Source: Streptomyces lydicus (GTDB lineage Bacteria > Actinomycetota > Actinomycetes > Streptomycetales > Streptomycetaceae). Taken from it: a stretch of DNA of 64,000 nt. Below are positions 2,252 to 50,080 of the stretch, in pieces. The DNA is taken from contig NZ_JNZA01000016.1 of the NCBI RefSeq assembly GCF_000717345.1, positions 1 through 64,000 on the forward strand. Direction: 5' to 3'. The notes under the pieces were generated by a model. It was given only the letters and a program-made list of their open reading frames with translations. It had not been told where the DNA came from and ran no database searches. Positions within the stretch are counted from its first letter, which is position 1. Each line of letters begins with the position of its first letter. The position numbers were made by a program, and so were the translations under genes.

Positions 2252-4609
2252 TCAGCCGGCCAGTTCGATGCCTGAGGTTTCCGTGGTGTCCTTGGCCGGG
2301 GTGTCGTCGGCCGCGGTGCGCGGGGACGGCAGTTTGATCAGGCCGGCGTCGGCGGCCGCGGCGCGCGGCGACGGTGCCACGGTCCGCTCGTCCTGCGGGA
2401 GCGGCTCGGGGAGCAGTTCCTCGCCGAGGAGGACCCGCCGCACCACGCGCTCGGCGGCGTGGCCGTCGTCCCACTGGCAGAACCGGGCGCGGAACGCGGC
2501 GCGCAGGCCGGTGGCCTTCTCGTCGTCCCAGCGGCCGCTGCGGAACGCCTCGATCAGCTCGTCCTCGGTGGTGGCGATCACGCCGGGGGTGTCGCCGGGC
2601 TTGCCCGAGAGCAGGTCGAAGGTGACGCCGCGGGAGCGGACGTAGGTGTCCCAGTCGTCGGCGTAGTTGATGATCGGCCGGTCGAGGTTGGCGTAGTCGA
2701 ACATGATCGACGAGTAGTCGGTGACCAGGGCGTCGGCGGCCAGGCACAGCTCCTCGACGACCGGGTGGCCGGAGACGTCGATCAGCGCGCCGCGCTCCTG
2801 GAGTTCCTGCAGGCCCGGGTCCTGGTCGTAGAAGTAGTGGGTGCGCACCAGCAGGACGAAGTCCTCGCCCAGCTCGCGGGAGATCTTCTCCAGGTCGAGC
2901 CGGGGGACGTAGCCGACCTGGTAGTCGCGCATGGTCGGGGCGTAGAGGACCGCGGTCCTGCCGGGGGCGATGCCCAGGCGCTCGCGGATGTCCAGGACGT
3001 CCTGGGCGCTCGCCCGGTAGTAGACGTCGTTGCGGGGGTAACCGGCGTCCACCGACTCGAAGTTGCAGGGGTAGACGCGCTCCCACTGCTCGGTGGTGTG
3101 CTGGTTGGAGGAGAGCGAGAAGTCCCAGCGGTCGGCGCGGGCCAGCAGCTTGCGGAAGCTCATGCCCTTGGCGGCGGCCGGGTAGCGCTTCTGGTCGGTG
3201 CCCATCGACTTCAGCGGGGTGCCGTGGTGGGTCTGGAGGTGGACCTGGCCCTCGCGCTTGACCACCCCGTCGGCGAAGTTGACGTTGTTGACGAGGTACT
3301 TGGCGCGGGCCATCACCTCCCAGTAGCGCGGCGAGTTCAGCACGACGTGGTCGATGCCGGCCGGGATCGCGCCGGAGTCGGCCAGCTGCTGCTTGACCAC
3401 CCACACGCCGTGCACGTGCGGGGCCAGCTCCTTGGCCTTCTCGTAGACCGCCAGCGGGTTGCAGGCCGGCAGCCGGTTCCAGTACGCGGAGTAGACCGCG
3501 AGGTTCTCGTCCAGCGGCTGGCGCAGCAGCGCCTGGTAGCGCAGGTCCATGGCCTTCTTCTTGGCCTGCTTGACCCGCTTGGTGGCGTGCTTGCGCACGG
3601 TGCGCTGCACCTTGCCGGCGACCTTGAGGCCGGCCAGCGCCGGGTAGGCGTCCTTGGCGAGCAGCGCGTACTTGCCGCCGGCCATGCCGGTGGGGCGGAC
3701 GAAGCCGGCCGGGATCCGGGTGCGGTAGTCGCGGGCGGCGCGGTGGAAGAACTCGGCCTGGGCGTTGGCCGGCAGCCGGCCGGGCTTGTCCAGCACCGTC
3801 AGGTAGTGGTCGATCATCTTGCGGAACATGTGCGGGCGCCAGCGCGACAGCTCCGGGTGCGCGTCGAGGTAGTCGAAGACCCGCTCGTACTGGTCGAAGA
3901 CGTCGAAGTGCTTGCGGCTGGTGGTGCGCAGGATGTTGCCGCCCTGCCGGCGCTGGCGGTAGTGCAGGCAGACCCGGTCGAGGACGGCTATGGACCCGGC
4001 GGTGATCAGCGTGCAGAACGTCCAGGGGGCGTCCTCGTAGTAGCCGACCGGGAAGGCGAAGCCGTGCTCCTCGATGAAGTCGCGGCGGTACGCCTTGTTC
4101 CAGACGATCTGCAGCAGGTCGAGGATCTCGGGGCGCTCGGCGAGGGTGAAGGAGGGCGCGCCGGACTCGTCGAGCAGCTCGGCGAGCGCGTTGCGCCGGG
4201 CCGAGCCGTCCCAGTAGGTCCGGGCGTAGTCGAAGATCAGGATCTCGGGGCTGTCGGTGGCGGCCAGCCGGTCGGAGAGGGCGGTGAGCGCGCCGGGCAC
4301 GAGGGTGTCGTCGCTGTCGAGGAAGAGGACGTACTCGCCGCGGACCTTCTCCAGGCCGGCGTTGCGGGCCAGGCCCAGGCCGACGTTCTCCGGGAGGTGG
4401 AGGACCTGGACGCGGTCGTCGCGGGCGGCGTACTCGTCCAGGATGGCGCCGCTGCGGTCCGGCGAGCAGTCGTCGACGGCGATGAGCTCGAAGTCCGTGT
4501 AGTCCTGCTCCAGCACCGAGTCCATGCACTCGCGCAGGAAGCCCTGCACTCTGAACACGGGAACGATGATGCTGAAGCGGGGTACGGCGTCGAGGTCTGT
4601 CTCGGACAT
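2252..4609 (-). CDS. bifunctional GT2 / CDP-glycerol-type polyol-phosphate transferase (TagF/TarL-like)
   Basis: The 785-residue protein has two enzymatic parts. Residues about 10-240 are a GT-A family-2 glycosyltransferase (FSIIVPVFR, nucleotide-binding VDDCSPD, metal motif DSDD at 98-101). Residues about 370-730 are a glycerophosphotransferase domain with the two hallmark motifs HHGTPLKSMG (about 464) and VTDYSSIMFDYANLDRPI (about 628). Such enzymes polymerise or attach glycerol- or ribitol-phosphate units from CDP-activated donors; the fused GT2 probably adds a sugar to the repeat. The C-terminal 60 residues are disordered and Pro/Ala-rich. A GAGGAG site precedes the ATG. It is the smaller of two such proteins in the locus (see 16563-20123). 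The acceptor and the polyol are not predictable. Confidence 0.85.
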   Translation of the reverse strand: MSETDLDAVPRFSIIVPVFRVQGFLRECMDSVLEQDYTDFELIAVDDCSPDRSGAILDEYAARDDRVQVLHLPENVGLGLARNAGLEKVRGEYVLFLDSDDTLVPGALTALSDRLAATDSPEILIFDYARTYWDGSARRNALAELLDESGAPSFTLAERPEILDLLQIVWNKAYRRDFIEEHGFAFPVGYYEDAPWTFCTLITAGSIAVLDRVCLHYRQRRQGGNILRTTSRKHFDVFDQYERVFDYLDAHPELSRWRPHMFRKMIDHYLTVLDKPGRLPANAQAEFFHRAARDYRTRIPAGFVRPTGMAGGKYALLAKDAYPALAGLKVAGKVQRTVRKHATKRVKQAKKKAMDLRYQALLRQPLDENLAVYSAYWNRLPACNPLAVYEKAKELAPHVHGVWVVKQQLADSGAIPAGIDHVVLNSPRYWEVMARAKYLVNNVNFADGVVKREGQVHLQTHHGTPLKSMGTDQKRYPAAAKGMSFRKLLARADRWDFSLSSNQHTTEQWERVYPCNFESVDAGYPRNDVYYRASAQDVLDIRERLGIAPGRTAVLYAPTMRDYQVGYVPRLDLEKISRELGEDFVLLVRTHYFYDQDPGLQELQERGALIDVSGHPVVEELCLAADALVTDYSSIMFDYANLDRPIINYADDWDTYVRSRGVTFDLLSGKPGDTPGVIATTEDELIEAFRSGRWDDEKATGLRAAFRARFCQWDDGHAAERVVRRVLLGEELLPEPLPQDERTVAPSPRAAAADAGLIKLPSPRTAADDTPAKDTTETSGIELAG

Positions 4610-4648
4610 GCGGTGCTAACTCCTCGTGACGATCTGAGTGCAGAACGC

Positions 4649-4672
4649 AAAAAAGGCCCCAAAGGGGTCTTT
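4649..4672 (-). terminator. hairpin plus T-tract in the leader of the TagF-like gene (possible attenuator)
   Basis: Read on the minus strand, AAAGACCCC-TTT-GGGGCCTTT forms a short hairpin followed at once by a T-run, ending about 40 bases before the ATG at 4609. A run of seven Ts is rare in this genome. Placed between promoter and gene, it could attenuate transcription. The whole stretch 4640-4770 is noticeably more AT-rich than its flanks. Confidence 0.45.
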
Positions 4673-4813
4673 GCATTGTCAGCCTTCTGACTCCCGTTCA
4701 CCCAAAAAGGTTGTTGTTCGTAACCTGAAAGTTCTGTGGTGCTCATCACGGATGTGGTCAAGTAGTGAACTTTCGGACGAGCGGGATCCGGCCGGCCACC
4801 GAATACTGAGGGG

Positions 4814-7048
4814 GTGTCACCCGCGCCTGAGCCCGGCGACTCCCGCCGCCCGCCCAGTCCTTCCCGTCGCCGGCTGCTCCAGGCCGCCGGCGGGGGAGTG
4901 CTGGCCGCGACCGCGGGCGTCGGTATCTACGCGTGGCGCACCCAGCAACTCCCCCGAACGGCCGAACCCAGCGGCGGCAGACGGCCCTTGGTGGACCCTG
5001 CCGACCAGTCCTTCCTCCAGGTCATCGCGCACGCCGACGACGGCCTGTACTTCATGAACCCCGAACTGGAGCAGTCCATCCGCGGCGGCGCCCGCTCGGT
5101 CACGGTCTGCCTCACCGGCGGCGAGGCCGACGGCCACAACGTCAGCAGACGGGCCACCGACCCCGCCGGCGTCCCCCGCAACCGGCCCGCCTTCGCCCGG
5201 GCGCGGACCAACGGGCTGCGCGCCGCGCACGCCGTGATGGCCACCGGTGACCCGGCCGCGCCCTGGGACGTGTCGGTGATCTCCCTGCTGCCCGGCTTCC
5301 AGGCGGAGCTGCACACCCTCCGCGCCGCCCCGCACCACCAGCTGATCTTCCTGGAGCTCGTGGAGTCCCGGGCCGTCTGGCAGGCCCGCGCCGTCAGCCT
5401 GCGCGGCCTGTGGCTCGGCGCCACCGACACGCTGCCCACCCTGCGCCCCGCCGGCACCCCCGTACGGCGGCAGTACCACTACACCCGCGACCAGCTCACC
5501 CACACCCTGGTCGCGGTGCTCGACCGGGTCCGCCCCACCGTCGTACGGACCCTGGACCCCAACGCGGCGCACTCCCGCAAACGCCCCCCGGCCAGCCCCG
5601 ACCGCGACCCGCGGCTCACCGGACTGCGCTACTACGACCACCAGGACCACACCGCCTCCGCCTACTTCGCCCAGGCCGCGCTGGCCGCCTACCAGGGCAG
5701 CACCCGCCACCCCCCGGCCGTCGTGGAGCACTACCTCGGCTACGAGTCCGGAGTGCTGCCCAACGACGTCGACCTGTCCACCGCCCGCCGCAAGGCCGGC
5801 CTGCTGGCGGTGTACGGCTGGGCCGACCACCGCCGCTGCGGCGACCCGGCCGGCTGCGGCGACCGCAAGGTGGGCGGCTCGGCGCTGCACGGCGGCTCCG
5901 GCAGCTGGACCCGCTCCACCCGGTTGCGCGCACCCGGCTCCAACGCCTGGATCCGGCCCGCCGCCGACGGCCGGCTCACCGCCTTCGCGGTGCTGGGCGG
6001 CGCGGCGTACTGCTGGACCGAGACCCGGCCGGGCAGCGGCACCTTCGGCGGGCCGGCCCGGGCCGGCGGGGAACTGCTGCAGGGGCAGATCCACGTGGTG
6101 CGCCGCCCCGACGGCGCGCTGCAGCTGTTCGCCACCCGCACCGTGCTGCCCGGCCGCAACGCCGCGCACCGCCGTGAGCTGGTGACCGCCGCGCAGCGCG
6201 GCACCGCCGAGGACGGCCGGCCGCTCTTCCCGCACTGGGAGTCGCTGGGCTCGCCCGACGCCGATCCGGTCCGCTCGCTGGAGATCGGCTTCCCCGCCGC
6301 GGTGGCCGCCCCGGACGGCACGGTGCACGTCTTCGTACGGACCTGGGACGGCAACATCGCCCACCGCAGCGGGCCCGGCGGCACCTACTGGTCGCTGTGG
6401 GAGCGGCTGGAGGGCCCGGTCGGCACGCTGAAGGCGTCACCGCAGGTCGTCGACGGACTGGACGCCTGCGTGGACTCCGACGGGCTGATCCACCTGGTCG
6501 CGCCGAGCACCGGGACCGTGCACCACTGGGTGTCCAAGGAGGCCGGCGAGATACCGCGGCCGGCCGCCGCCACGGGCCTGCCGCAGCCGGCCGGCCCGGT
6601 CAGCGTCGTGCCGCTGGCCGGCGGCGCCGTCCGGGTCGCCTACCGCCGCTCGGTCACCGCGCAGGTGCTGCTCGCCGAGCGGCAGCGGCTGATCGGCGGC
6701 TGGCGGGTCTCGGCGCAGTGCGCGGCGGTCGGCGGACACGGCCGGGTGGCGGCGGCACCGGTCGGCAGCGGCGACCGGATGGTGCTCGCGGCCCGCGACG
6801 ACGCCGGTGACGTGCGGATGGCGATGGCCCAGGACGCGCCCAAGCCCTGGCAGACCGGCCGGGTGCCGCACTCCGCGGCGGCCGGGGTCGCCCAGGACGC
6901 GGTGGGGCGCGCCGTGGTGGCCGTGCTGGGCACCGACGGCAGGCTGTACACCACCCGGCAGACCTCGGTCGGGCAGGGCGCGCTGTTCCGGCCCTGGCAG
7001 GGTCACGCGGAGGCCGCCGGGCGCAGGATCCGCCGGGAGACGACATAG
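4814..7048 (+). CDS. Tat-exported PIG-L family deacetylase with C-terminal beta-propeller-like domain
   Basis: The 744-residue protein starts at a GTG and has a twin-arginine signal (SRRRLLQAAGGG, about 17-27) followed by a hydrophobic stretch. The PIG-L metal site appears as IAHADDGLYFMNP (His73, Asp75, Asp76); the usual Glu after the Asp pair is Gly, as in the DDxLxFMNP subgroup. A later YDHQDHTASAYF motif (about 274-285) supplies the second metal/catalytic histidine cluster. Residues about 350-740 are repeated Trp/Gly/His-rich strands such as HWESLGSP and GNIAHRSGP, typical of secreted propeller or lectin-like modules. The likely role is removing N-acetyl groups from a wall or exported glycan, which fits this locus. 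The 3' end overlaps the convergent gtrA gene by 46 bases. The substrate is unknown. Confidence 0.8.
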   Translation: MSPAPEPGDSRRPPSPSRRRLLQAAGGGVLAATAGVGIYAWRTQQLPRTAEPSGGRRPLVDPADQSFLQVIAHADDGLYFMNPELEQSIRGGARSVTVCLTGGEADGHNVSRRATDPAGVPRNRPAFARARTNGLRAAHAVMATGDPAAPWDVSVISLLPGFQAELHTLRAAPHHQLIFLELVESRAVWQARAVSLRGLWLGATDTLPTLRPAGTPVRRQYHYTRDQLTHTLVAVLDRVRPTVVRTLDPNAAHSRKRPPASPDRDPRLTGLRYYDHQDHTASAYFAQAALAAYQGSTRHPPAVVEHYLGYESGVLPNDVDLSTARRKAGLLAVYGWADHRRCGDPAGCGDRKVGGSALHGGSGSWTRSTRLRAPGSNAWIRPAADGRLTAFAVLGGAAYCWTETRPGSGTFGGPARAGGELLQGQIHVVRRPDGALQLFATRTVLPGRNAAHRRELVTAAQRGTAEDGRPLFPHWESLGSPDADPVRSLEIGFPAAVAAPDGTVHVFVRTWDGNIAHRSGPGGTYWSLWERLEGPVGTLKASPQVVDGLDACVDSDGLIHLVAPSTGTVHHWVSKEAGEIPRPAAATGLPQPAGPVSVVPLAGGAVRVAYRRSVTAQVLLAERQRLIGGWRVSAQCAAVGGHGRVAAAPVGSGDRMVLAARDDAGDVRMAMAQDAPKPWQTGRVPHSAAAGVAQDAVGRAVVAVLGTDGRLYTTRQTSVGQGALFRPWQGHAEAAGRRIRRETT

Positions 7049-38936: not shown

Positions 38937-40157
38937 ATGTCGGGCCCGTGTTCGTACGTCCGGCCCCGCCGCATTCGCCGCGGGGCGGCCCTGACCTTGT
39001 TCCTCGCGAGTGTGCTCGCCACCGGCGCGGTGACCGGCACATGGAGCGACAAGGCGGAGGGCGCGGCCGGCCGCGCCGCCCCGGACCGCGCGGTTCCGAG
39101 CGCTCACGGCTCCGCGTCCGCACGGTCCTCCGCCACCGCCGACCGCGCGGCCGTGGAGCGGGCCGCCACCGAAGCCATCGAGGACGGCAAGTCCGGTTCC
39201 CAGGCGGCCGCCGAGGTGGTCAGCCGCAGCGGCGACCGCTGGTCGACGATCTACACGCCGGGCGAGTTCGAGGATTTCCAGGCGCAGTTGGACGGCCGTT
39301 ACGTCGGTGTCGGGCTGTGGGTGCGGCAGGTGGCGGGCCGGACCGAGGTGTCCCGGGTCCGGCCGGGCAGCCCCGCGGCCGGCGCCGGGATCGCCGTCGG
39401 TGACCGGCTGCGGGCCGTCGACGGCCGCGCCACGCGGGACCGTCCGGTCACCGAGACCGTCGCGGCGCTGCGCGGCGAGACGCACCGCGGCGCCCGGGCC
39501 GCGGTCGGCACGGCCGTACGGCTCGACCTGCAGCGCGGTGACCGGCGCTGGAGCGTGACCCTGCACCGTGTCCGGCTGCGCACCCCCAACGTCGTCACCG
39601 ACCGGCCGGCCGGGCCGCACGGCCCTACCCGCGTCAAGATCACCTCGTTCGCGAGGGGCACCGGCGCCGCGGTCCGCCGCGCGGTGCGCCGCGCCTCGCC
39701 GCACGGTGGTCTGCTGCTCGACCTGCGGGGCAACACGGGCGGGCTGGTCACCGAGGCCGTCGCCACCGCCTCCGCCTTCCTGGACGGCGGCCTGGTCGCC
39801 ACCTACGACATGCGGGGCGCCCAGCGCGCGCTGTACGCCGAGCGCGGCGGCAACACCCGGCTGCCGCTGGTGGTGCTCGTCGACGGTGGCACGATGAGCG
39901 CCGCCGAGCTGCTGACCGGGGCGCTCCAGGACCGCGGCCGGGCCGTGGTGGTGGGCTCCCCGACCTTCGGCAAGGGCTCGGTGCAGATGCCCAGCCGGCT
40001 GCCGGACGGTTCGGTCGCCGAGCTGACCGTCGGCCACTACCGCACCCCGTCGGGGCGGATCGTCGACGATGCCGGCATCACCCCCGACCTGGTGGTGGGG
40101 GATCATGCCGAGCGGCGGGCCCGCACAGTATTGAGTGGCCTCGGAGCGGGTGCGTAG
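38937..40157 (+). CDS. S41 family C-terminal processing protease, secreted or membrane-anchored
   Basis: The 406-residue protein has an N-terminal signal-anchor (RRGAALTLFLASVLATGAV, about 15-33), a linker, a PDZ domain (about 120-200; VGVGLWVR, AGAGIAVGDRLRAVDG) and the tail-specific protease core with GLLLDLRGNTGG, the nucleophile Ser321 in GGTMSAAE and Lys346 in GKGSVQ (Ser/Lys dyad). Such CtpA-like enzymes trim extracytoplasmic proteins. It sits between ftsX and smpB, a common actinobacterial order. The link to division is positional only. Confidence 0.93.
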   Translation: MSGPCSYVRPRRIRRGAALTLFLASVLATGAVTGTWSDKAEGAAGRAAPDRAVPSAHGSASARSSATADRAAVERAATEAIEDGKSGSQAAAEVVSRSGDRWSTIYTPGEFEDFQAQLDGRYVGVGLWVRQVAGRTEVSRVRPGSPAAGAGIAVGDRLRAVDGRATRDRPVTETVAALRGETHRGARAAVGTAVRLDLQRGDRRWSVTLHRVRLRTPNVVTDRPAGPHGPTRVKITSFARGTGAAVRRAVRRASPHGGLLLDLRGNTGGLVTEAVATASAFLDGGLVATYDMRGAQRALYAERGGNTRLPLVVLVDGGTMSAAELLTGALQDRGRAVVVGSPTFGKGSVQMPSRLPDGSVAELTVGHYRTPSGRIVDDAGITPDLVVGDHAERRARTVLSGLGAGA

Positions 40158-40175
40158 TGCGAAAATGGCCGCACT

Positions 40176-40673
40176 ATGGCTAAGGACAAGGGCAAGGACA
40201 AGACTCCCGGGCGCAAGCTCGTCGCACAGCACAAGAAGGCGCGGCACGACTACCACATCCTGGACACCTACGAGTGCGGTCTGGTGCTGACCGGTACCGA
40301 GGTGAAGTCGCTGCGCCAGGGCCGGGCGTCGTTGGTGGACGGTTTCGTGCAGATCGACGGCAACGAGGCGTGGCTGCACAACGTGCACATCCCCGAGTAC
40401 GCCCAGGGCACCTGGACCAACCACGCGGCGCGGCGGAAGCGGAAGCTGCTGATGCACCGCTACGAGATCGACAAGCTGGCGTCCAAGAGCAACGAGACGG
40501 GGCACACGATCGTGCCGCTGGCCCTCTACTTCAAGGACGGCCGGGCCAAGGTCGAGATCGCGCTGGCCAAGGGCAAGAAGGAGTTCGACAAGCGGCAGAC
40601 GCTCCGCGAGCAGCAGGACCGCCGCGAGGCGGACCGGGCGGTGTCCGCGGCCCGTCGGCGGCAGCGGGCCTGA
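40176..40673 (+). CDS. smpB: SsrA-binding protein
   Basis: The 165-residue protein has the SmpB fold: [43 protein letters not shown] and a basic tail. It delivers tmRNA to stalled ribosomes. The tmRNA gene follows 104 bases downstream, the usual pairing. The gene follows the S41 gene by 18 bases and may share its transcript. Confidence 0.97.
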
Positions 40674-40700
40674 CCTGCGGGTGCGGCCCCGGGAATACGC

Positions 40701-40730
40701 TGGCAACCGCACCTGTTGTTCACGTACGAT
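40701..40730 (+). promoter_or_regulatory. candidate promoter of ssrA
   Basis: TACGAT (40725-40730) is a good -10; TGGCAA 18 bases upstream is a weak -35. Transcription would start near 40737, leaving a leader of about 40 bases for RNase P to remove. Confidence 0.45.
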
Positions 40731-40777
40731 GGCTGAGCACCCCACGGAGGGTGTGCACCACATTGAAAAATCAACAT

Positions 40778-41145
40778 GGGGATGATCGGTTTCGACAGCG
40801 GATGTCGAAGCAGGGGAAGCGTGTCGAGGAAGCGGCAATGATCTCGTAAACCATATGCCGAAACCAATAATCGCCAACACCAAGCGCGATTCCTTCGCCC
40901 TCGCTGCCTAAGTAGCGACTTGCGAAGTGTCAGCCCGGGGATGATCCCGACCCGGTTCCTGGCATCAGCTAGGGGTCTTATCCGTTGAGCCCGGTCACGG
41001 GGCGCAGCGGAGACATCAAACAGTGACTGAGCCCGTCGGAGACTTGTTCGCGTGATCTCCGGGGCTGAGAAAATCGCAGCGAACTGCACACGGAGAAGCC
41101 CTGATTCCACACCGTTGGACGCGGGTTCGATTCCCGCCATCTCCA
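40778..41145 (+). ncRNA. ssrA: transfer-messenger RNA
   Basis: The 5' end GGGGATGATCGGTTTCGACA and the 3' end with the TPsiC arm (GGGTTCGATTCCC) and ATCTCC are typical. GGGGAT pairs with ATCTCC (one G-U) to form the acceptor stem; the CCA end is not encoded, as usual in Streptomyces. The tag frame begins at GCC 40872 and reads ANTKRDSFALAA followed by TAA, then TAG. It rescues stalled ribosomes and marks products for degradation, with SmpB encoded just upstream. The 3' end is placed at the discriminator base. Confidence 0.96.
40872..40910 (+). other. tmRNA tag-peptide reading frame
   Basis: Resume codon GCC and eleven further codons give ANTKRDSFALAA, ending in TAA. It is four residues shorter than the S. 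coelicolor tag as I recall it (ANTKRDSSQQAFALAA). The conserved FALAA end is the protease degron. Confidence 0.95.
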
Positions 41146-41159
41146 CTCATCCCATGTAG

Positions 41160-41201
41160 CGCAGCGCCCTCGCGAGATTCTCGCGGGGGCGCTGCGTTTT
41201 T
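41160..41201 (+). terminator. intrinsic terminator of ssrA
   Basis: Left arm 41160-41175 (CGCAGCGCCCTCGCGA) pairs with 41181-41196 (TCGCGGGGGCGCTGCG) with one G-T mispair, followed by TTTTT. Confidence 0.9.
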
Positions 41202-41220
41202 GTGCCCGCGCCCGGCCGGC

Positions 41221-42498
41221 TCACCAGGACCGACGGCCCGACCACGCGAGGGTGAGGGCGAGGGCGGCCGCCGCGGCGGGGACCCCGTACGCGGCCGCCG
41301 GGGCCGCCAGGTGGTCCACCGCGAAGCCGCCGGCCGCCGAGCCGGCCGCGATCCCGCCCAGCAGGGCCGTCACCGCCAGCGTCATCCCTTCGTTCAGCCG
41401 GTCCGCCGGGGTGCGGGCCTGGACCAGTCCCATGCCGGTGACCATGGTCGGTGCGGTGGCCATGCCGGCCGCGAGCAGCGCGGCGGCCAGTGCCGGCGCG
41501 CTCCCGGTGGCCGCGGCCGCGAGCGGCAGCAGCATCAGTACGGTCATCGCGCCGACACAGGTCAGGAAGCGTGCTCCGAGGCGGCCGGCCGGGCGCAGCA
41601 GGCCGTACAGCAGCCCGGCCGCGCCGGAGCCGGCCGCCTGGAGGGCCAGCATGCCGCCAGCGGCGGAGCGGATGCCGTGGTCGTCGGCGTAGGCGAGGGT
41701 GACGACCTCCAGGGAGCCGAAGATCGCGCCGGTGGCGAGGAAGGTGAGCAGCAGCGGGGGGAGGCCGGGCAGCCGCAGCGGTGCCGCGGCCCGCTGCTCG
41801 TCGCGGGTGCCGGCCGGCCGTGCGGCCACCGGTGGTTCGGTGTCGCGGCGGCCGGCGAACAGCAGCATGCCGGTCAGCAGCAGCGCCGCGGCGACCGCGG
41901 TCCCCGCCTCGGGGAAGAGGGTGGTGCACAGCAGCGTCGCGAGTACCGGTCCGAGCATGAAGCACAGTTCGTCCGCGGCCTGTTCGAAGGAGTTGGCGGT
42001 GTGCCGGGCGGCCGGGTCGTCGCGGAAGAGGTGTGCCCAGCGGGCGCGGGACATGCCGCCGGTGTTGGGTGTGGTGGCGGTGGCGGCGTACGACGCGAAC
42101 AGGGTCCAGTCGGGCGCCCGGAGGTGGACGCACAGCAGCAGCGAGAGCGAGCCGAGGACGGCGACCGCGGTGGCCGGGACGGCGACGCGGGACTGGCCGT
42201 GGCGGTCGACCATGCGGGCGGTCCACGGCCCTGCCAGCGCCGTCGCCGCGAGGCCGGTCGCGGTGACCGCCCCGGCCAGCGCGTAGGAGCCGCGCGAGCC
42301 GGCGATCATCAGCACCGCGCTGACGCTGAACATCCCCATGGGCAGCCGGGCCAGCAGGTTGGCGGCGGTGAAGGCGCGGGCGCCGGGGGCGGCGAAGATC
42401 CGGCGGTAGGGGGCGAGCGGGCGGAAGCGGGGGCGGCGGCGCGGGGCAGGGCGTACGGGGGGCGCAGTGACGGGGCGGGCGGCGAGGAAGAGGATCAT
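41221..42498 (-). CDS. MFS transporter, drug-efflux-like
   Basis: The 425-residue protein has about twelve hydrophobic segments and a basic N-terminus. FTAANLLARLPMGMFSVSAVLMIAG near the start and the loop ARMVDRHGQSRVAVPA between TM2 and TM3 are MFS-like (inner-gate motif). It is divergent from a LysR regulator that begins 122 bases away, so an inducible efflux pair is likely. Substrate cannot be predicted. Confidence 0.8.
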   Translation of the reverse strand: MILFLAARPVTAPPVRPAPRRRPRFRPLAPYRRIFAAPGARAFTAANLLARLPMGMFSVSAVLMIAGSRGSYALAGAVTATGLAATALAGPWTARMVDRHGQSRVAVPATAVAVLGSLSLLLCVHLRAPDWTLFASYAATATTPNTGGMSRARWAHLFRDDPAARHTANSFEQAADELCFMLGPVLATLLCTTLFPEAGTAVAAALLLTGMLLFAGRRDTEPPVAARPAGTRDEQRAAAPLRLPGLPPLLLTFLATGAIFGSLEVVTLAYADDHGIRSAAGGMLALQAAGSGAAGLLYGLLRPAGRLGARFLTCVGAMTVLMLLPLAAAATGSAPALAAALLAAGMATAPTMVTGMGLVQARTPADRLNEGMTLAVTALLGGIAAGSAAGGFAVDHLAAPAAAYGVPAAAAALALTLAWSGRRSW

Positions 42499-42620
42499 GC
42501 CTCATACGGTCGCGGCAGCGGCCGGTGCCGGTCCAACACCTGATGAGCACCGATTCACGCGGCTGTGTTGTCAATGGCGGCGGGGTCGGCAGGGGCGGCC
42601 GGCACTGCCAGGATGGCCCG

Positions 42621-43625
42621 GTGCCGTCCGACATCGATCCGCGTCTGCTCCGGGCCTTCACCGCCGTCGCCGAGGAGCTGCACTTCACCCGCGCCGCGGC
42701 CCGGCTGTACGTGGCCCAGCAGGCGCTGAGCCGCGACATCCGGCGGCTGGAGCGGGAGGTGGGCGCCGCGCTGTTCGTGCGGACCACCCGCCAGGTCTCC
42801 CTGACCGCCGACGGGGCGCGGCTGCTGCCGTACGCGCGGCGGGTGCTGACCGCGCACGAGGAGCTGACCGCGGCCTTCCGGCCGGCCCCCGAGCGGCCGC
42901 TGCTGGTCGATGTGGGGGTGCCGGTCGGCACCGCCTACCGGGTGCTGGAGGAGGCCAGGGTCCGGCTGCCGGACAGCTGCGAGCTGGTGGCCCGCTTCCA
43001 CAGCGGACTGACCGGCGCGGCGGGGGAGTTGCTGGCCGGGCGGCTGGACGTCTCCTTCGGGCGGTACGCGGGGCTGCCGGCGGCCGTGCGGGCGGGGCTG
43101 GAGCACCAGCCGGTCCGGCTGGAGCCGATGGCGGTGCTGCTGCGCGAGGACCATCCGCTGGCGGCGCGGCCGGTGGTCCCGCTCGCGGAGCTGGCCGGCG
43201 AGACGCTGTACGCGGCCGCCGGGAATCCGCAGACGGTGGAGTGGACGGAGCTGGCGGCGCACCTCTTCGCGGGGCGGGGCATCGCGATGGCGGAGCCGTT
43301 CCCGGAGATCGACGGCTCGCAGGAGTTCGTACGGGTGGTGCGCAAGCGGGGCTGGTCGGTACTGGCAAGCGTGGAGTTCATCGAGGTACCGGGGATGGTG
43401 CTGCGCCCGGTGGTGGAGCCGGTGCCACTGTCGCCGGTGTCGATGGTGTGGCGGCGGGGGCTGGGGCATCCCGGGCTGGCGGCGCTGCGCGCGGTGGCGG
43501 GCCAACTGGGGCGCCGGGACGGCTGGTTGACGGTCCCGGAGGGCGGCTGGCTGCCGCCGGAGGACGCCCGTGCGATGGGTGTGGCCGGGCCGGCGCGGGG
43601 CGGCGCGGCGCTCACGGAACGCTGA
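42621..43625 (+). CDS. LysR-family transcriptional regulator
   Basis: From the GTG at 42621 (AGGATGG just upstream) the product has 334 residues. Residues 5-62 are the winged HTH (LLRAFTAVAEELHFTRAAARLYVAQQALSRDIRRLE), and 90-300 the periplasmic-binding-like effector domain. It probably controls the divergent MFS gene, since LysR regulators usually act on a divergent neighbour. The 3' end overlaps the convergent B2 protease gene by 14 bases. The effector is unknown. Confidence 0.88.
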   Translation: MPSDIDPRLLRAFTAVAEELHFTRAAARLYVAQQALSRDIRRLEREVGAALFVRTTRQVSLTADGARLLPYARRVLTAHEELTAAFRPAPERPLLVDVGVPVGTAYRVLEEARVRLPDSCELVARFHSGLTGAAGELLAGRLDVSFGRYAGLPAAVRAGLEHQPVRLEPMAVLLREDHPLAARPVVPLAELAGETLYAAAGNPQTVEWTELAAHLFAGRGIAMAEPFPEIDGSQEFVRVVRKRGWSVLASVEFIEVPGMVLRPVVEPVPLSPVSMVWRRGLGHPGLAALRAVAGQLGRRDGWLTVPEGGWLPPEDARAMGVAGPARGGAALTER

Positions 43626-44070
43626 GCACGCGGTGGTAGAAGGCCGTGTCGGAGGGTTCGCCGACGGGGCGGCCGTCGACCGCGACCCAGGCGTGGGTGC
43701 GGAAGGGCGCGGTGCGTACGCCGGTGCACCACTGCGGCCAGTGGCCGCGGGCGCGGCACAGGAGCGCGGTGGCCAGGGAGCGGGGGAGGCAGCCGTCGCC
43801 GGCGCAGTGCGGGCTGACCGTGACCACGGCGTGCCGGGCCCGCAGCGCCTCGGGCGCGGTGGCGGACCGGGCGCCGCGCCGGATCCGCTCCAGGAGGCGG
43901 CACAGCCGGTGCGGCGGCAGCGCCGTCAGGACGCGGGCGACGGCCACCGCCGCGCGGGCGGCGCAGCGTTCGCGGAAGGTGAGCCGGGCACCGGTGAGGA
44001 GCGGGGCGGGGCCGGTCACCGGGTCGCCGGGCGGGCGGTGCGGGGGAGGGACGGCGGGGACGGCGGTCAT
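43612..44070 (-). CDS. lasso-peptide B2-type transglutaminase-like leader peptidase
   Basis: The 152-residue protein contains the PF13471-type cysteine protease core: GDGCLPRSLATALLCR (catalytic Cys94), then RTHAWVAVDGRPVGEP (His126, Asp132). In lasso peptide pathways B2 cleaves the leader from the precursor before cyclisation. The ATG overlaps the stop of the cyclase-like gene (ATGA). The family normally acts with B1 (RRE, PqqD-like) and a cyclase; only the cyclase relative is present here. The three catalytic residues are intact, unlike those of its partner. Confidence 0.8.
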   Translation of the reverse strand: MTAVPAVPPPHRPPGDPVTGPAPLLTGARLTFRERCAARAAVAVARVLTALPPHRLCRLLERIRRGARSATAPEALRARHAVVTVSPHCAGDGCLPRSLATALLCRARGHWPQWCTGVRTAPFRTHAWVAVDGRPVGEPSDTAFYHRVLSVP

Positions 44071-46178
44071 GGGGAGTGCGCTCCTTTCGCCGGGGCGGCG
44101 CGGGGGACGGGGACGGCGGGTACCGGCACGGCCGGCGCGGGCGTGGGGGCGGGGGCGACGGCGCGCAGCCAGTACTCGGTGGCGAGGGTGGCGTCCAGGG
44201 CCCGCAGGGTGGGGTCCGGCGGCTGCGGTGCGGTGAGGTGGCGCCGCAGGACGTCGGGGTGGATCAGGCCGCGGGCGGCGAGCGGGGAGTCGTCGCAGAG
44301 GGCGGCCAGGGCGTCGCGGTGGGCGCGCAGGCCGGTGCGGGCCCCGGGGCCGGGCGCGGCGGGCGTACCGCGGCCGAGGACGCCGTCGGGGACGACGCCG
44401 CGCAGCGCGCGGGTCAGCAGCGGCTGGTGGACGCCGGCCCGGCCGCGGTCGGCGAGGTCGAGGGCGAGCGCCGCCTCCACGACCGCGTCGTCGAGGAACG
44501 GCGCCTCGTGGCCGACGCCGTGCGGGGCGGTCAGGGCGTCGGCGCCGCGGACGGTCTCCGCGGCGTGCAGGGCGGCGCGGAGGATCTCGTGCTGGGCGCG
44601 CAGCGGCGCGAACGGTTCGGGGGCCTCGTCGGCGGCCTCGCGCAGCAGCCGGCGGACGGTGGCGACGGCGTCCGGGTGGGCCCACGGCGGCAGGGCGGGT
44701 GGCGCCTCCCAGTCGGCGCCGCCGGCCCGCCGTCCGCGGCCTGACGCCCGGGGTGCGCTGCCGGCCAGCCACCGGGGGTAGGAGCGGCCGCCGAGGAGCG
44801 TGCGCAGGGTGTCGCGGGCCGTCCAGCGGCAGAGGTGGTGGGCGGTCCAGGCGCGCCGGGCGGCGGTGCGCAGGTCGCCGCGGGCAAGGGAGTTGAGGGC
44901 CGCCGGGCGGTGCCCGAACAGTGCGTCGGCGCCGGCGTCGACGAGGTGCAGCCGGGAGCCGCGCTCGGCGACCAGCCGGGCCCGGTGGGCGAGGCGGGCC
45001 GCCTCGCGGAAGACGGCGAGCGGGCCGGCCGGGTCGGCGGGGGTGCCGTGGCGGGCGTCGGTGGGCGGGGTGTAGCAGGTGGGGGCGTCGGCGTACGGCA
45101 GCGCGAGGTGCGCCCCGGGCGGGGGTCCGGCCGGGGCCCCGGAGACGCGCCGGTCGCCGCTCCTTCCGCGGGTCTCGCCCTTGCCCTTCCCCTTGTTCTT
45201 GCGCTTGCCGCTGTTCCCGTCCGGTTCCTCGGCGGTGTCCTGCCCCGCGCGCCGCCGGCGCTGCCGTTCCGCCGCGGCGAGGGCGGCGGCGCCGTGGGCG
45301 CTCCACCGGGTGTCCTCGTCGCCGGGCCGGCGGGACGTCCAGGAGGTGGTGAGCAGCCGGACGTCCTCGCGGGCGGTGAGGAAGCACAGTCCGGTGGCGC
45401 CGGTGGAGTCGGAGAGGCCGGCGCTGAGCGTGCCGCGGCCCGCGGTCCCGTCGGCGGCGGCCTGCCGCTGTGCGCGCCGGGCGCGGGCCGCCACCGCGTC
45501 GGCCAGTGCCCCGCCCAGGTGCTCCGCGGCGCGCTCCAGGGGGACGTCCGGTTCCGGCGGGCTCCACCAACGGGCCAGGGAGTGCCGCCCGTTGGCGTAC
45601 AGGGTGAGGTGGTGGCCCGGGGGTACGGCGGACACCGCGCGCCAGGCCGGGCGGAGGGCCGGCGGGAGCGGGGCGAAGGGGAACAGCAGGCGCAGTGCCG
45701 GCGCGTCCTCGTCGAGGAAGCCGAGGCCGGGGGCGCCGGCCGGCAGTCCGGCCGCGGCGGCGGCGCGGGCGAGCGCCGCCAGGTCCTGGGGGCGGTTGCC
45801 GGCGACGGTGACGCCGGCGATCCGGGCGTGGTGGAGCAGGCGGACGCCGGCGAGATCGCCCCGGCACCGCAGGTCGCCCTCGGCGGCGGTCAGCAGGAAG
45901 GCGCTGCCGGGGAGGGGGCGGGCGCGGCGGCCGATGCCGTCGAGGTGGCCGGGCCCCGGCAGCAGCCGGGCCAGCGTGCCGGGGGTCGCCGGGGTGGTGC
46001 CGAGCAGCAGCGCGCGGCGCGGTCCGGCCTCGGCCGCCACGGCCTCGTCGGGCGACCAGTGCCCGGTGATCCAGGGGCGTCCGGAGGGGTGGCGGAGGGT
46101 GCGACGGGACGGGCTCGCCGGCAGGCAGCGGCCGAGCGCGTCGGAGGCGGGGTGATCGGGGAGGACGAGGAAATCCAC
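44067..46178 (-). CDS. divergent asparagine-synthetase-like lasso cyclase homologue
   Basis: I place the start at the GTG (46178) opening VDFLVLPDHPAS; an upstream GTG at 46190 is possible. The 703-residue product has a GATase-like N-terminus without nucleophile Cys2 (as in lasso C proteins), and a C-terminal synthetase half. The ATP-pyrophosphatase loop reads LSAGLSDST (251-259) where LSGGLDS is expected: one residue inserted and Gly to Ala. The second motif reads DAGADALF (414-421) instead of GxGGDxLF. HEAPFLDDAVVEAAL (557-571) is conserved. Residues about 300-355 are a Lys/Gly/Arg-rich insert. Activity is doubtful from the altered loop; it may be decayed or neofunctionalised. It is coupled to the B2 gene. 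Confidence 0.75.
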   Translation of the reverse strand: MDFLVLPDHPASDALGRCLPASPSRRTLRHPSGRPWITGHWSPDEAVAAEAGPRRALLLGTTPATPGTLARLLPGPGHLDGIGRRARPLPGSAFLLTAAEGDLRCRGDLAGVRLLHHARIAGVTVAGNRPQDLAALARAAAAAGLPAGAPGLGFLDEDAPALRLLFPFAPLPPALRPAWRAVSAVPPGHHLTLYANGRHSLARWWSPPEPDVPLERAAEHLGGALADAVAARARRAQRQAAADGTAGRGTLSAGLSDSTGATGLCFLTAREDVRLLTTSWTSRRPGDEDTRWSAHGAAALAAAERQRRRRAGQDTAEEPDGNSGKRKNKGKGKGETRGRSGDRRVSGAPAGPPPGAHLALPYADAPTCYTPPTDARHGTPADPAGPLAVFREAARLAHRARLVAERGSRLHLVDAGADALFGHRPAALNSLARGDLRTAARRAWTAHHLCRWTARDTLRTLLGGRSYPRWLAGSAPRASGRGRRAGGADWEAPPALPPWAHPDAVATVRRLLREAADEAPEPFAPLRAQHEILRAALHAAETVRGADALTAPHGVGHEAPFLDDAVVEAALALDLADRGRAGVHQPLLTRALRGVVPDGVLGRGTPAAPGPGARTGLRAHRDALAALCDDSPLAARGLIHPDVLRRHLTAPQPPDPTLRALDATLATEYWLRAVAPAPTPAPAVPVPAVPVPRAAPAKGAHSP

Positions 46179-46420
46179 GGTGGGGGGCACTCCACTGGAG
46201 GGGCCGGTACGGCGCCGGGCGGGCCGGGTGGACGCAGGGCGCACTGAGCGGGGTCACGCAAAGCGTTCGACTGGATGCTGACAGTGTTCACGTCAATTTC
46301 CATTGCCTCGAAGGGGTGATCACGGGGGCGTGCGAGGCAAACCGGCGCGGGCCCACGGGGCGCGCGCGCCGGAGCGCCCGAGATCGCTCACGGGGCCCCC
46401 GCACGCCCGGTGAGCGCGAG

Positions 46421-46457
46421 GTTTCGCGGCGGTCACCTCACGCCACCGCGCCGAAAC
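46421..46457. promoter_or_regulatory. GlnR-box-like sites upstream of narK
   Basis: The minus strand reads GTGAC-N6-GAAAC (46436 to 46421), a perfect match to the GlnR a/b half-site (GTnAC-N6-GAAAC). Six bases further on it reads CTCAC (46414-46410), one base from the next GTnAC element. On the plus strand GCCAC-N6-GAAAC lies at 46442-46457 (one mismatch). GlnR activates nitrate genes in Streptomyces. The rest of the 328-base spacer between narK and the cyclase-like gene shows no gene. Confidence 0.6.
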
Positions 46458-46467
46458 CCGCGGTCCC

Positions 46468-46473
46468 TATGTT
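46468..46473 (+). promoter_or_regulatory. candidate -10 of narK
   Basis: TATGTT lies 34 bases before the narK ATG and about 40 bases right of the centre of the GlnR-like site. No -35 is visible, as expected for an activator-dependent promoter. Confidence 0.45.
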
Positions 46474-46506
46474 CGGGGCAGACGACCCGACCCCCTGGGA
46501 GGCGCG

Positions 46507-47946
46507 ATGACGGCCGAGGCCGCGGCAGGCACCCGTACCGACAGTCCCGGCGCAAGCCGTACCGACGGCCGTGCGCGGCGAGGGGGGCGGTGGATCGAGC
46601 ACTGGGAGCCGGAGGACGAGGGGTGGCGGGAGACCGGTGAGCGGATCGCCCGGCGGAACCTGGCCTTCTCCGTGCTGTCCGAGCACATCGGCTTCTCCGT
46701 CTGGAGCCTGTGGTCGGTGATGGTGCTGTTCATGGGGCCGGAGTACGGCATCGACCCGGCCGGGAAGTTCTTCCTGGTGGCGATACCGACGCTGGTGGGC
46801 GGGGTGCTGCGGGTGCCGTACACCTTCGCGGTGGCGCTGTTCGGGGGGCGCAACTGGACGGTGATCAGCGCGCTGCTGCTGCTGGTGCCGACCGCGGCGG
46901 CCGCGGTGGTGATGCACCCGGGCACGTCGTACTCCACGTTCATCGTGGTCGCGATGGTGGCGGGCGTCGGCGGCGGGAACTTCGCCTCCTCGATGACGAA
47001 CATCAACTCGTTCTTCCCGCTGCGCAAGAAGGGGTTCGCGCTGGGGCTGAACGCGGGCGGCGGCAACATCGGGGTGCCGGTGATCCAGCTGCTGGGGCTG
47101 CTGGTGATCGGGACGGCGGGGGCCGGCCATCCGCGGCTGGTGCTGGCCGTGTACGTGCCGCTGATCGTGCTGGCGGCGGTGCTCGCGGCGCTGTTCATGG
47201 ACAACCTCGCGCCGGTCACCCACGACACCGGGGCGGCCCTGGACGCCGCCCGGCAGCCGCACACCTGGGTGATGTCGCTGCTGTACATCGGCACCTTCGG
47301 GTCGTTTATCGGCTACAGCTTCGCCTTCGGGCTGGTGCTGCAGAGCCAGTTCGCCCGCACCCCCCTGCAGGCCGCGTCGCTGACCTTCGTCGGCCCGCTG
47401 CTGGGTTCGCTGGTGCGGCCGGTCGGCGGGCGGCTGGCGGACCGCTTCGGCGGCGCCCGGATCACGCTGGGGACCTTCGCGGCGATGGCCCTGGCCACCG
47501 GCGTGGTCATCCACGCCTCGGGGATCGCCTCGCTGCCGGTGTTCCTCGTCGGCTTCTTCGCGCTGTTCGTGCTGTCGGGGCTCGGCAACGGCTCCACGTA
47601 CAAGATGATCCCGGGGATCTTCCAGGCGCAGGCGCTGCGCCGCGGTCTGACGGGCGAGGCGGCGGCGGCCTACGGGCGGCGGCTGTCGGGCGCGGCGATG
47701 GGGCTGATCGGCGCGGTGGGCGCGCTCGGCGGGCTGGCCATCAACCTCGCGTTCCGGCAGGCGTTCCTGACCGGCGGCTCGGGCACCCCCGCCTTCGTCT
47801 CCTTCCTGGCCTGCTACGCCGTGTGCGCCGCGGTGACCTGGGCCGTATACCTCCGTCCCGCGGCGCGGGCGCGGCGTACCGCGCAGGCCGGGGCGGCCGG
47901 GGCGGCCGCGGAGGGGGAGCGGCACCCGGTCCACGCGGAGGTGTGA
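46507..47946 (+). CDS. narK: nitrate/nitrite transporter, MFS NarK type
   Basis: The 479-residue protein has a long hydrophilic N-terminus (1-55) and twelve TM helices. The two nitrate-signature runs are clear: GGGNFASSMTNINSFFP (about 157) and GLGNGSTYKMIP (about 359). It imports nitrate (or exports nitrite) for assimilation. GGGAGGCGCG precedes the ATG. The next gene is nnaR, and both have GlnR-like boxes, so they are probably induced under nitrogen limitation. No nitrate or nitrite reductase genes are in the window. Confidence 0.9.
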   Translation: MTAEAAAGTRTDSPGASRTDGRARRGGRWIEHWEPEDEGWRETGERIARRNLAFSVLSEHIGFSVWSLWSVMVLFMGPEYGIDPAGKFFLVAIPTLVGGVLRVPYTFAVALFGGRNWTVISALLLLVPTAAAAVVMHPGTSYSTFIVVAMVAGVGGGNFASSMTNINSFFPLRKKGFALGLNAGGGNIGVPVIQLLGLLVIGTAGAGHPRLVLAVYVPLIVLAAVLAALFMDNLAPVTHDTGAALDAARQPHTWVMSLLYIGTFGSFIGYSFAFGLVLQSQFARTPLQAASLTFVGPLLGSLVRPVGGRLADRFGGARITLGTFAAMALATGVVIHASGIASLPVFLVGFFALFVLSGLGNGSTYKMIPGIFQAQALRRGLTGEAAAAYGRRLSGAAMGLIGAVGALGGLAINLAFRQAFLTGGSGTPAFVSFLACYAVCAAVTWAVYLRPAARARRTAQAGAAGAAAEGERHPVHAEV

Positions 47947-47956
47947 GGCGCCCGGC

Positions 47957-47972
47957 GTAACGGTGTGGAAAT
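47957..47972 (+). promoter_or_regulatory. GlnR-box-like site upstream of nnaR
   Basis: GTAAC-GGTGTG-GAAAT matches the GlnR half-site consensus (GTnAC-N6-GAAAC) at all but the last base. It begins 11 bases after the narK stop and 140 before the nnaR start. Confidence 0.6.
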
Positions 47973-48096
47973 ACTGGAGGACCCGGGCTGTCACCTGCCG
48001 TTGGCAGCCTGGGCACCCTGGCACTCCGTGCCGCCCGAGCCGCGGCGGTCGGGGTGCGGAACGCGGCACAACCACTCTGGGCGGAGCGGGACGACC

Positions 48097-49320
48097 ATGG
48101 ACGAGCAGCATCAGGAGCGCGAGGAGCGGGAGCGGACGGAGCCGGGCACGGCACCGGCGGTCCGGCCGCTGGACGGGTTCACCATCGGGGTGACCGCCGC
48201 CCGGCGGGCGGAGGAGCTGGGCGCGCTGCTGGAGCGGCGCGGCGGGCAGGTGCTGCACGCCCCCGCGCTGCGCATCGTGCCGCTGCCGGACGACACCGAG
48301 CTGCTCGCGGTGACCCGGGCGCTGATCGACGACGCCCCCGACGTCGTCGTGGCCACCACCGCCATCGGGTTCCGCGGCTGGGTGGAGGCCGCCGAGGGCT
48401 GGGGGCTGGGCGAGGCGCTGCTGAACCGGCTGGCCGGGGTGGAGCTGCTGGCGCGCGGGCCGAAGGTGCGCGGCGCGATCCGGGCCGCCGGGCTGACCGA
48501 GAAGTGGTCACCGGCCTCCGAGTCGATGGCCGAGGTGCTGGACCGGCTCCTGGAGGAGGGCGTCGACGGGCGGCGGATCGCGCTGCAGCTGCACGGGGAG
48601 CCGCTGCCGGGGTTCGTCGAGGCGCTGCGGGCCGGCGGCGCGGAGGTCGTCGGCGTCCCCGTGTACCGCTGGATGCCGCCGGAGGACCTCGGTCCGGTCG
48701 ACCGGCTGCTGGACGCGACGCTCGCCGGCGGCCTGGACGCGGTGACGTTCACCAGCGCGCCGGCCGCCGCCTCGCTGCTGCGCCGCGCGGAGGAGCGCGG
48801 CATCCGCGACGCGCTGCTGGCGGCGCTGCGCACGGACGTGCTGCCGGTGTGCGTGGGGCCGGTGACCGCGCTGCCGCTGGAGGCCGAGGACGTCGCCACG
48901 CTCCAGCCGGAGCGCTTCCGGCTCGGGCCGCTGGTGCAGCTGCTGTGCCGCGAACTGCCGGGCCGGGTACGGACGTTGCCGGTGGCCGGGCGGCGACTGG
49001 AGATCCGTGGGCACGCCGTCGTGGTGGACGGCGTGCTGCGGCCGGTGCCGCCGGCCGGGATGGCGCTGCTGCGGGCGCTGGCCCGCCGCCCCGGCTGGGT
49101 CGTTCCCCGCGCCGAGCTGCTGCGTGCGCTGCCGGGCGCGGGCCGCGACGAGCACGCGGTGGAGACCGCGATGGCCCGGCTGCGGGTGGCGCTGGGCGCG
49201 CCCAAGCTGATCCAGACGGTCGTCAAGCGCGGCTACCGGCTGGCGCTGGACCCGCACGCGGACACCGACAAGTACGGCGGGGAGGACGCGCAGGTCAGGC
49301 GGGTTGCGCCGGGTTGCTGA
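48097..49320 (+). CDS. nnaR: HemD-like (uroporphyrinogen-III synthase fold) regulator with C-terminal winged helix
   Basis: The 407-residue protein begins MDEQHQERE. Residues about 25-265 form the two-domain uroporphyrinogen-III synthase fold (FTIGVTAARRAEELGALL, VVATTAIGFRGW, LQLHGEP, FTSAPAAASLLRRA). Residues about 295-390 are an OmpR/Trans_reg_C-like DNA-binding wing ending in IQTVVKRGYRLAL. This fusion and the place after narK match NnaR, a nitrate-assimilation regulator in S. coelicolor that works with GlnR. Whether it keeps synthase activity is unknown. It overlaps the convergent methyltransferase gene by 26 bases. Confidence 0.85.
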   Translation: MDEQHQEREERERTEPGTAPAVRPLDGFTIGVTAARRAEELGALLERRGGQVLHAPALRIVPLPDDTELLAVTRALIDDAPDVVVATTAIGFRGWVEAAEGWGLGEALLNRLAGVELLARGPKVRGAIRAAGLTEKWSPASESMAEVLDRLLEEGVDGRRIALQLHGEPLPGFVEALRAGGAEVVGVPVYRWMPPEDLGPVDRLLDATLAGGLDAVTFTSAPAAASLLRRAEERGIRDALLAALRTDVLPVCVGPVTALPLEAEDVATLQPERFRLGPLVQLLCRELPGRVRTLPVAGRRLEIRGHAVVVDGVLRPVPPAGMALLRALARRPGWVVPRAELLRALPGAGRDEHAVETAMARLRVALGAPKLIQTVVKRGYRLALDPHADTDKYGGEDAQVRRVAPGC

Positions 49321-50080
49321 CGCGGATCTTGGACTGGCCGTGCGGCCGGGTCTCCCAGTCGTCCATGAAGCGGGCCTCCAGGCCGTGTCCGCGGGCCAGC
49401 CGCAGCAGGGTGTCGGTCCGGTAGTAGAAGTCCTCGCGCAGCACCTGGTGCTCGGCGCCCTCGGTGCGGTCGAAGGTGAAGTCGAAGAACCCGTCGGGGG
49501 CCAGGATCCGGCCGACGTGGGCGAGGCATTCGTCGATCACTTCGAGCGGGGAGTGCGAGAAGACGCTGTGCGCGTGCACCACGTCGAAGTACCCGGCCGG
49601 CAGGAAGTCCAGTGTCAGGTCCTGCGTGATCGTCAGGTGCGGCAGCTTGTCCTGGAGTTCGTACGTCGTCAGGGTGCGCTTGGCGGCAATCAGGATGTCC
49701 GGCGAGATGTCGATGCCGTAGTAGTTGCCGGTGTCGAGGTGGGCGATGAAGCGCCAGCCGGCCCGCAGGTTGCCGCAGCCGATGTCCAGCATCCGGTGCT
49801 CCGGCCGGAGCCCGTGCTCGGCCAGGTACGCGAACTGCATCTCGCCGAGCGCCAGCCACCGCTCGTGGCTGCGGCTGCCCACCGCGGCCTCGGGGCTGCG
49901 GCCGGCGTCGGAGGCCATCACCGCCCGGTAGTACGCGACGTGGTCGGGGTGCTTGAGGCGCAGCCAGGTGTCGCGGGCGGTGCGCTTGACGTACGGGGTG
50001 ATGCGGGCGGGGTTGCGGACCGCGTAGCCGATCTTGTGGGTCAGGCTGGCGCGATTCGTGAGCAGGGACTTGCGCGACAT
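49295..50080 (-). CDS. class I SAM-dependent methyltransferase
   Basis: The 261-residue protein starts MSRKSLLTNRASLTH at 50080 (AAGG 8 bases before). Motif I is RMLDIGCGNLRAGW (about 93-106), followed by YYGIDISPDIL, FDVVHAHSVFSHSP and GRILAPDGFFDFTFD. It belongs to the Methyltransf_25/11 group seen next to glycan genes. The 3' end overlaps nnaR. No partner genes help to identify its substrate. Confidence 0.78.
   Translation of the reverse strand: MSRKSLLTNRASLTHKIGYAVRNPARITPYVKRTARDTWLRLKHPDHVAYYRAVMASDAGRSPEAAVGSRSHERWLALGEMQFAYLAEHGLRPEHRMLDIGCGNLRAGWRFIAHLDTGNYYGIDISPDILIAAKRTLTTYELQDKLPHLTITQDLTLDFLPAGYFDVVHAHSVFSHSPLEVIDECLAHVGRILAPDGFFDFTFDRTEGAEHQVLREDFYYRTDTLLRLARGHGLEARFMDDWETRPHGQSKIRVSNPAQPA

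Follow-up and report, generated by a model that had tools for sequence, protein, structure and literature searches.

The window analyzed here is a 64,000-nucleotide stretch of the Streptomyces lydicus genome (contig NZ_JNZA01000016.1, positions 1 to 64,000) that encodes, on its minus strand, a homolog of the lasso peptide cyclase (C) and a homolog of the B2 leader peptidase. The pair occupies a site where relatives carry a four-gene operon for a precursor (A), C, B1 and B2. All four ATP-binding and adenylation motifs of the window cyclase are changed, its losses are concentrated in the active-site loops, and it evolves at a nonsynonymous-to-synonymous rate ratio (dN/dS, ω) well below 1. We consider it rather probable that this lasso cyclase has turned into a pseudoenzyme that is maintained for a function other than adenylation, which in S. 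lydicus may be that of a partner of B2. The chances are about even for the wider proposal that a lasso cyclase was exapted in two Streptomyces lineages, losing its adenylation residues in parallel and being selected as a non-catalytic AsnB-fold protein with some cellular role, and that it outlived the precursor, the recognition element (RRE) protein B1 and, in one lineage, the protease.

A C-B2 pair with an eroded cyclase active site

The C homolog (44067..46178) is a 703-residue protein of the AsnB/β-lactam-synthetase fold, identified by its translation and by family, motif and structure searches. Its frame starts with a GTG codon and overlaps by ATGA the frame of B2 (43612..44070, 152 residues), which was identified by translation, family search and alignment. 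B2 scores 112.9 bits against the NCBIfam model NF033537 (cut-off 33), and its Cys94, His126 and Asp132 are present, as they are in both aligned relatives. A full-length B2 of 152 residues also occurs in a cluster of 27 sequences whose representative is named S. lydicus. The best NCBIfam model for the cyclase is NF033561, the family of the albusnodin and ikarugamycin macrolactam cyclases, with 133.6 bits. The missed cut-off of 300 carries little information because the motif-intact S. rimosus cyclase (246.9 bits) also falls below it, as does an S. noursei orphan cyclase (209.2 bits).

Alignment located the four altered motifs. The PP-loop reads LSAGLSDSTGATG, with SDSTGA (45396..45413) in the place of the SGGxDS of four-gene loci. 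The second motif is VDAGADALF (44916..44942) where these loci have VGVGGDELF. YKPLL has become HQPLL, and the replacement of YKP by HQP (44421..44429) removes a conserved lysine; a second conserved lysine is lost where TPAAPG replaces TKGEHS (44349..44366). Sequencing error is ruled out as the source of these changes, as three homologs named S. lydicus and genome G137 carry altered motifs too. One homolog (P0013) is identical to the window in the PP-loop and second motif, and two others (P0014, P0015) are changed at the same sites. For the S. lydicus cyclases there are sequence clusters with 29, 5 and 3 members.

A low-complexity insert rich in Lys, Gly and Arg lies between the PP-loop and the second motif (45114..45266, residues ~305-355) in the alignment and the predicted structure, where part of it has low model confidence. 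Across the aligned homologs (columns ~460-600 of alignment A3; residues ~305-355 of P0001) it varies from a few to >100 residues and in its content of Gly, Ser, Lys, Arg and Asn. The closer homologs have it as well, and its presence in motif-intact proteins rules it out as a mark or cause of lost function.

Among the components of a lasso operon, the locus holds the B2 leader peptidase, and the precursor, B1 and intact C motifs are missing. Neither a precursor nor a B1 was found beside the pair among the small open reading frames (ORFs) of both strands, and no lasso-like ORF of at least 20 residues was found in the window on the C strand of the gap upstream of C (13 relatives were also scanned). 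A tblastn search with seven queries against 18 loci and window positions 40001-50000 returned no A or B1 for the window. An earlier note, made from the sequence alone, had described the pair with its ATGA overlap, the Cys-His-Asp residues, the first two altered motifs, the insert between them and the missing precursor and B1. The translations, alignments, ORF scans and tblastn search bear out each of these observations.

Descent from a four-gene lasso operon

Among the 61 Streptomyces genomes searched, the closest cyclases outside the window's own genome are those of G036 and S. rimosus (G048), with 59-61% identity (60% for S. rimosus). Both genomes have a 47-residue precursor, the cyclase, an 85-residue B1 and B2 at this locus. 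The window, G036 and G048 have the same neighbors: to one side are FtsX, SmpB, a major facilitator superfamily (MFS) gene and a gene of the LysR type, and the opposite side holds another MFS gene and a gene for a HemD/winged-helix protein. The S. rimosus partners pass their NCBIfam cut-offs, with 29.2 bits for the precursor (cut-off 19), 98.4 for B1 (70) and 113.9 for B2 (33).

Scanning named genomes gave 14 loci, and DNA searches of 392, 61, 393 and 391 genomes found a match in 11, 2, 3 and 7 of them, the own genome and repeats included; the DNA search of 61 relatives matched the own genome and G036 only. Sites were sorted by tblastn for A, B1 and B2. Seven have all four genes (S. rimosus, G036, S. 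monomycini, CB02923, NRRL S-337, S. endophytica and G090). The window and G137 have C and B2. C alone is left in NBRC 110611 and in the eight genomes of the S. noursei group (CT34, MspMP-M5, CB02959, S. albospinus, S. rhizoryzae, S. noursei, G311 and G727), where tblastn for A, B1 and B2 gave chance-level matches (E = 0.04 in L042, antisense within C; 0.49 in L053; 0.12 or worse in G727). The 93-residue precursor-like ORF of G090 (L087:10772-11053) is repetitive and has an unusually long stretch before the lasso leader motif.

The window locus is a degenerate lasso operon because syntenic A-C-B1-B2 loci with intact motifs exist in these seven relatives. Judged by this synteny, the pair is a descendant of an A-C-B1-B2 operon between the LysR-type and MFS genes.

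Precursor gene A lies in relatives where the window has a 328-bp gap upstream of C (46179..46506), as tblastn and the ORF scan indicate. At the C-B2 junction, judging from a short alignment with NRRL S-337, B1 seems to survive in its opening bases and its final ~25 bases. This one weak pairwise alignment suggests that the ATG of the present B2 frame is a relic of the B1 start. The GTG at 44017-44019 is probably the ancestral B2 start, and B1 has probably been deleted down to a relic of ~50 nucleotides (44020..44070) that now extends the B2 frame at its N terminus.

Other sites show losses at different stages. S. nigrescens HEK616 (L051:9755-12534) has A, an insert-bearing SGGTDS cyclase and a B1 stub; tblastn matches only about the first 45 residues of B1 and gives no B2 hit. 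This site is an operon in mid-loss. The B2 frame of NRRL S-337 is shortened to 111 residues (L041:12678-13079; the contig stops just past the locus) and the B1 frame of S. endophytica is disturbed near residue 76 (L046:12373-12626), so that these two operons, too, may be breaking down.

Motif erosion follows operon loss

SGGxDS, GVGGDELF, YKP and TKG are intact in all seven cyclases from four-gene loci, and 10 of the 11 cyclases without A and B1 have partially lost at least one of them. The exception is S. albospinus, where the only change is to GIGGDELF. The S. nigrescens cyclase, from a partly degraded operon, has TKNEHS in place of TKGEHS. Across the relatives compared, motif erosion follows operon loss. 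Eroded motifs occur in at least two separated clades of the protein tree, one on the S. lydicus side and one on the S. noursei side; there is possibly a third, support inside the S. lydicus-side clade being weak. The tree was built without P0034, which has a late start, and alignment A4 without P0034 and P0003.

The PP-loop replacements differ among close relatives (SDSTGA, SASTGA, SGSTGA, SGSTGS, SADTAA and SPHTAA). They bear on the idea that the cyclase is still catalytic, with the altered motifs supporting a novel chemistry at the ATP site. Its retained and constrained ORF would suit such an enzyme, but one fixed new motif would then be expected, and the replacement residues are not conserved; we regard this idea as very improbable.

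Losses concentrate in the active-site loops

There are 290 sites that are invariant in the seven four-gene loci. The window cyclase has changed at 21 of the 31 that lie in active-site loops and at 23 of the 259 elsewhere (p = 7.9e-13). The corresponding counts are 18 and 23 in G137 and 18 and 26 in NBRC 110611. Members of the S. noursei group have lost between 2 (S. albospinus) and 14 (S. rhizoryzae) of the 31 loop sites, with a significant excess in four of the eight genomes (S. rhizoryzae, S. noursei, G727 and CB02959). S. nigrescens has lost 3/31 loop sites compared to 4/259 elsewhere (p = 0.029). In leave-one-out controls, the four-gene loci differ at 0-1 of 31-32 loop sites and at 0-42 sites elsewhere.

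This distribution is relevant to simple decay, a possible if doubtful account in which C and B2 have drifted since A and B1 were lost, their frames staying open since GC-rich DNA rarely makes stops. Decay would explain why relatives are found at several stages of loss, from S. nigrescens, the B1 of S. endophytica and the B2 of NRRL S-337 to the lone C of NBRC 110611. But it should strike invariant sites evenly, and in the window 68% of the loop sites are lost compared to 9% of the others.

Selection on the cyclase and B2

Selection was measured with a purpose-written codon model of the MG94 type, fitted by maximum likelihood to 600 gap-free cyclase codons of 19 sequences. The cyclases of G055 and of a second lasso operon in the window's own genome (contig C41, described below) were left out, and genomes found twice (for example G048, as L044 and L031) were used once. 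Branch-class, B2 and flanking-gene fits ran for at most 40-80 iterations; two key tests were refitted to convergence with no notable change. The cyclase ω is 0.179 in the background of four-gene loci plus S. nigrescens. In the S. noursei crown, where every locus is C-only, it is 0.165, and fixing it at 1 costs a doubled log-likelihood difference (2ΔlnL) of 469.0 (468.9 at convergence). The branches of the window, S. lydicus and NBRC 110611 have an ω of 0.287, with a cost of 100.1. On the window and G137 tips alone it is 0.257, and the converged fit rejects neutrality (2ΔlnL = 31.5). Rejection on these post-loss tips and in the crown argues against decay. The window cyclase does not behave as a pseudogene, having an open frame and an ω on its tips that excludes neutrality, and the dN/dS comparison that the earlier note had proposed thus speaks against simple decay.

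Three flanking genes fitted with the same code gave ω values of 0.096-0.227 in the crown and 0.103-0.152 on the window and G137 tips. These fits exclude S. endophytica, C41 and G055, retain other taxa even where a gene model is shortened, and use only columns free of gaps. High pairwise dN/dS values from short or misaligned flanking models (the MFSa gene in S. noursei and G727; LysR in CT34) were not used. The S. noursei cyclases lie within the flanking-gene range and show no visible relaxation. B2, fitted without NRRL S-337 and G055, has an ω of 0.378 on the two window-lineage tips and 0.137 in the background.

Neutral evolution was simulated at four equilibrium GC values with 200 runs each. 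The observed nonsynonymous/synonymous ratio between the window and G137 is 1.47 compared to neutral means of 2.45-3.72, and its third-position excess is matched by 2% of neutral runs at GC 0.65 and by none at the other values. The S. noursei-G727 ratio is 0.62 compared to neutral means of 2.59-4.03. MspMP-M5-G311 (0.80) and CT34-S. albospinus (1.40) are also low against the neutral means of S. noursei-group pairs (2.55-4.12), and the four-gene pair S. rimosus-G036 gives 0.81. An open frame is weak evidence at these distances because zero stops are common under neutrality between the window and G137 (P = 0.235-0.545), a result that fits decay. The GC content of third codon positions stays at 0.955, which speaks against decay.

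Several points weigh against retention of the cyclase as a selected pseudoenzyme. The window lineage shows a roughly twofold relaxation of constraint relative to the flanking genes, as decay would have it, and the tip estimate comes from a single genome pair. The lowest neutral window-G137 ratio is 1.17 at GC 0.65, below the observed value, although it is at least 1.5 at the other GC values. The B2 tips reject neutrality only marginally (2ΔlnL = 4.02). The active-site loop set was chosen partly after the losses had been seen, and the loop excess is not significant in CT34, S. albospinus, MspMP-M5 and G311. The S. noursei crown counts as post-loss only on the assumption that the partners disappeared once, before the group diverged; this is the simplest interpretation. 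Finally, a partnership with B2 cannot explain the S. noursei group.

Partners elsewhere in the genomes

Family models for B1, the leader and B2 were searched in 13 genomes. The window's own genome has a single B1 match and a single lasso leader above the cut-off, both on contig C41. They belong to a second lasso operon (L028, which is C41:7000-19000; the operon lies at about 2389-7010) with precursor, C, B1, B2 and an ATP-binding cassette transporter (PF00664 and PF00005); its B1, B2 and leader score above the family cut-offs.

The C41 operon makes it conceivable that the window pair acts in trans, using a precursor and a B1 encoded at a different site. But C41 is already supplied with a C and a B2, the window cyclase is without ATP motifs, and the models for B1, the leader and B2 match nothing in G311, a two-contig genome with an orphan C. 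We regard action in trans as very improbable. Because it has no such match, G311 is unlikely, within the detection power of the models used, to make a lasso peptide with remote partners. G707 has no B1, no leader above the cut-off and one B2. In the orphan-C genomes G727, G175, G191 and G265, which carry lasso genes elsewhere, a remote role is conceivable.

Fold and possible role of the cyclase

The cyclase has the N-terminal Ntn-like and C-terminal synthetase domains of the AsnB fold (PF00733, 64.6 bits). Two structure predictions are confident (mean predicted local distance difference test scores of 86.2 and 87.9), and fold matches in the PDB cover model residues 1-677. A PDB sequence search with the S. 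rimosus cyclase found nothing at E ≤ 0.001. The solved structural matches are the hydroxyamidotransferase TsnB9 (7ylz), carbapenam synthetase, β-lactam synthetase and AsnB/ASNS. These are active, ATP-using enzymes, in contrast to the predicted inactivity of the window cyclase, and sequence identity to them is 12-19%. The relation to actinobacterial A-C-B1-B2 operons is closer, with direct syntenic ancestry and the identity to the S. rimosus cyclase noted above, but the window lacks A and an intact B1, and its cyclase has lost the ATP motifs and two lysines.

Loss of catalytic residues and selection on the fold together point to a pseudoenzyme, catalytic inactivity being judged from sequence. 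In the window lineage, many residues are lost and constraint is moderate; in the S. noursei group, residue loss is partial and constraint is strong. The proposed course starts with an A-C-B1-B2 operon that lost A and had B1 deleted, probably to the short relic. No isopeptide bond would be expected from the cyclase because its adenylation residues are lost. With the remaining body under purifying selection in the statistical tests, the fold most likely does a non-adenylating job. The likeliest job in S. lydicus would be that of a structural partner of the retained B2. According to PMC11420955, McjB is inactive without McjC, and the predicted McjB-McjC complex has active sites that face each other; this analogy suggests that the cyclase body serves B2. 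The orphan cyclase of the S. noursei group, with no B2 left at the locus, would have another role.

The earlier note had offered three readings of the locus. A decayed locus describes its origin, given the syntenic operons of the relatives, and fits its present state poorly. For that state, a repurposed pair without canonical ATP chemistry is favored by the low dN/dS and the active-site-concentrated loss. A remote precursor is disfavored, and the whole-genome search that the note had suggested for RRE proteins and leaders led only to C41.

RiPP (ribosomally synthesized and post-translationally modified peptide) genome mining would class such loci as broken clusters. Here a maturation enzyme appears to survive its own pathway, still constrained, and to lose its catalytic loops above all. 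If this is true, one site holds a natural series from four-gene operon to orphan pseudoenzyme, with which one can explore further functions of a lasso cyclase and the share of the C fold that is devoted to peptide threading or B2 docking as opposed to ATP chemistry. No orphan or pseudo lasso cyclase was described in the literature searched, which comprised titles and the starts of abstracts with sparse coverage of subscription journals, so that publication elsewhere is possible. The inactive ATP-grasp homologs of graspetide loci described in PMC8939145 are likewise inactive relatives of a RiPP macrocyclase; unlike the full-length fold that outlives its pathway here, they are truncated and lie within ATP-grasp loci.

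Beyond the precursor gap, window positions 46507-49320 hold the MFS gene followed by the gene for a HemD and winged-helix regulator, from which the cyclase is transcribed divergently. This gene pair is reminiscent of a nitrate/nitrite transporter paired with NnaR.

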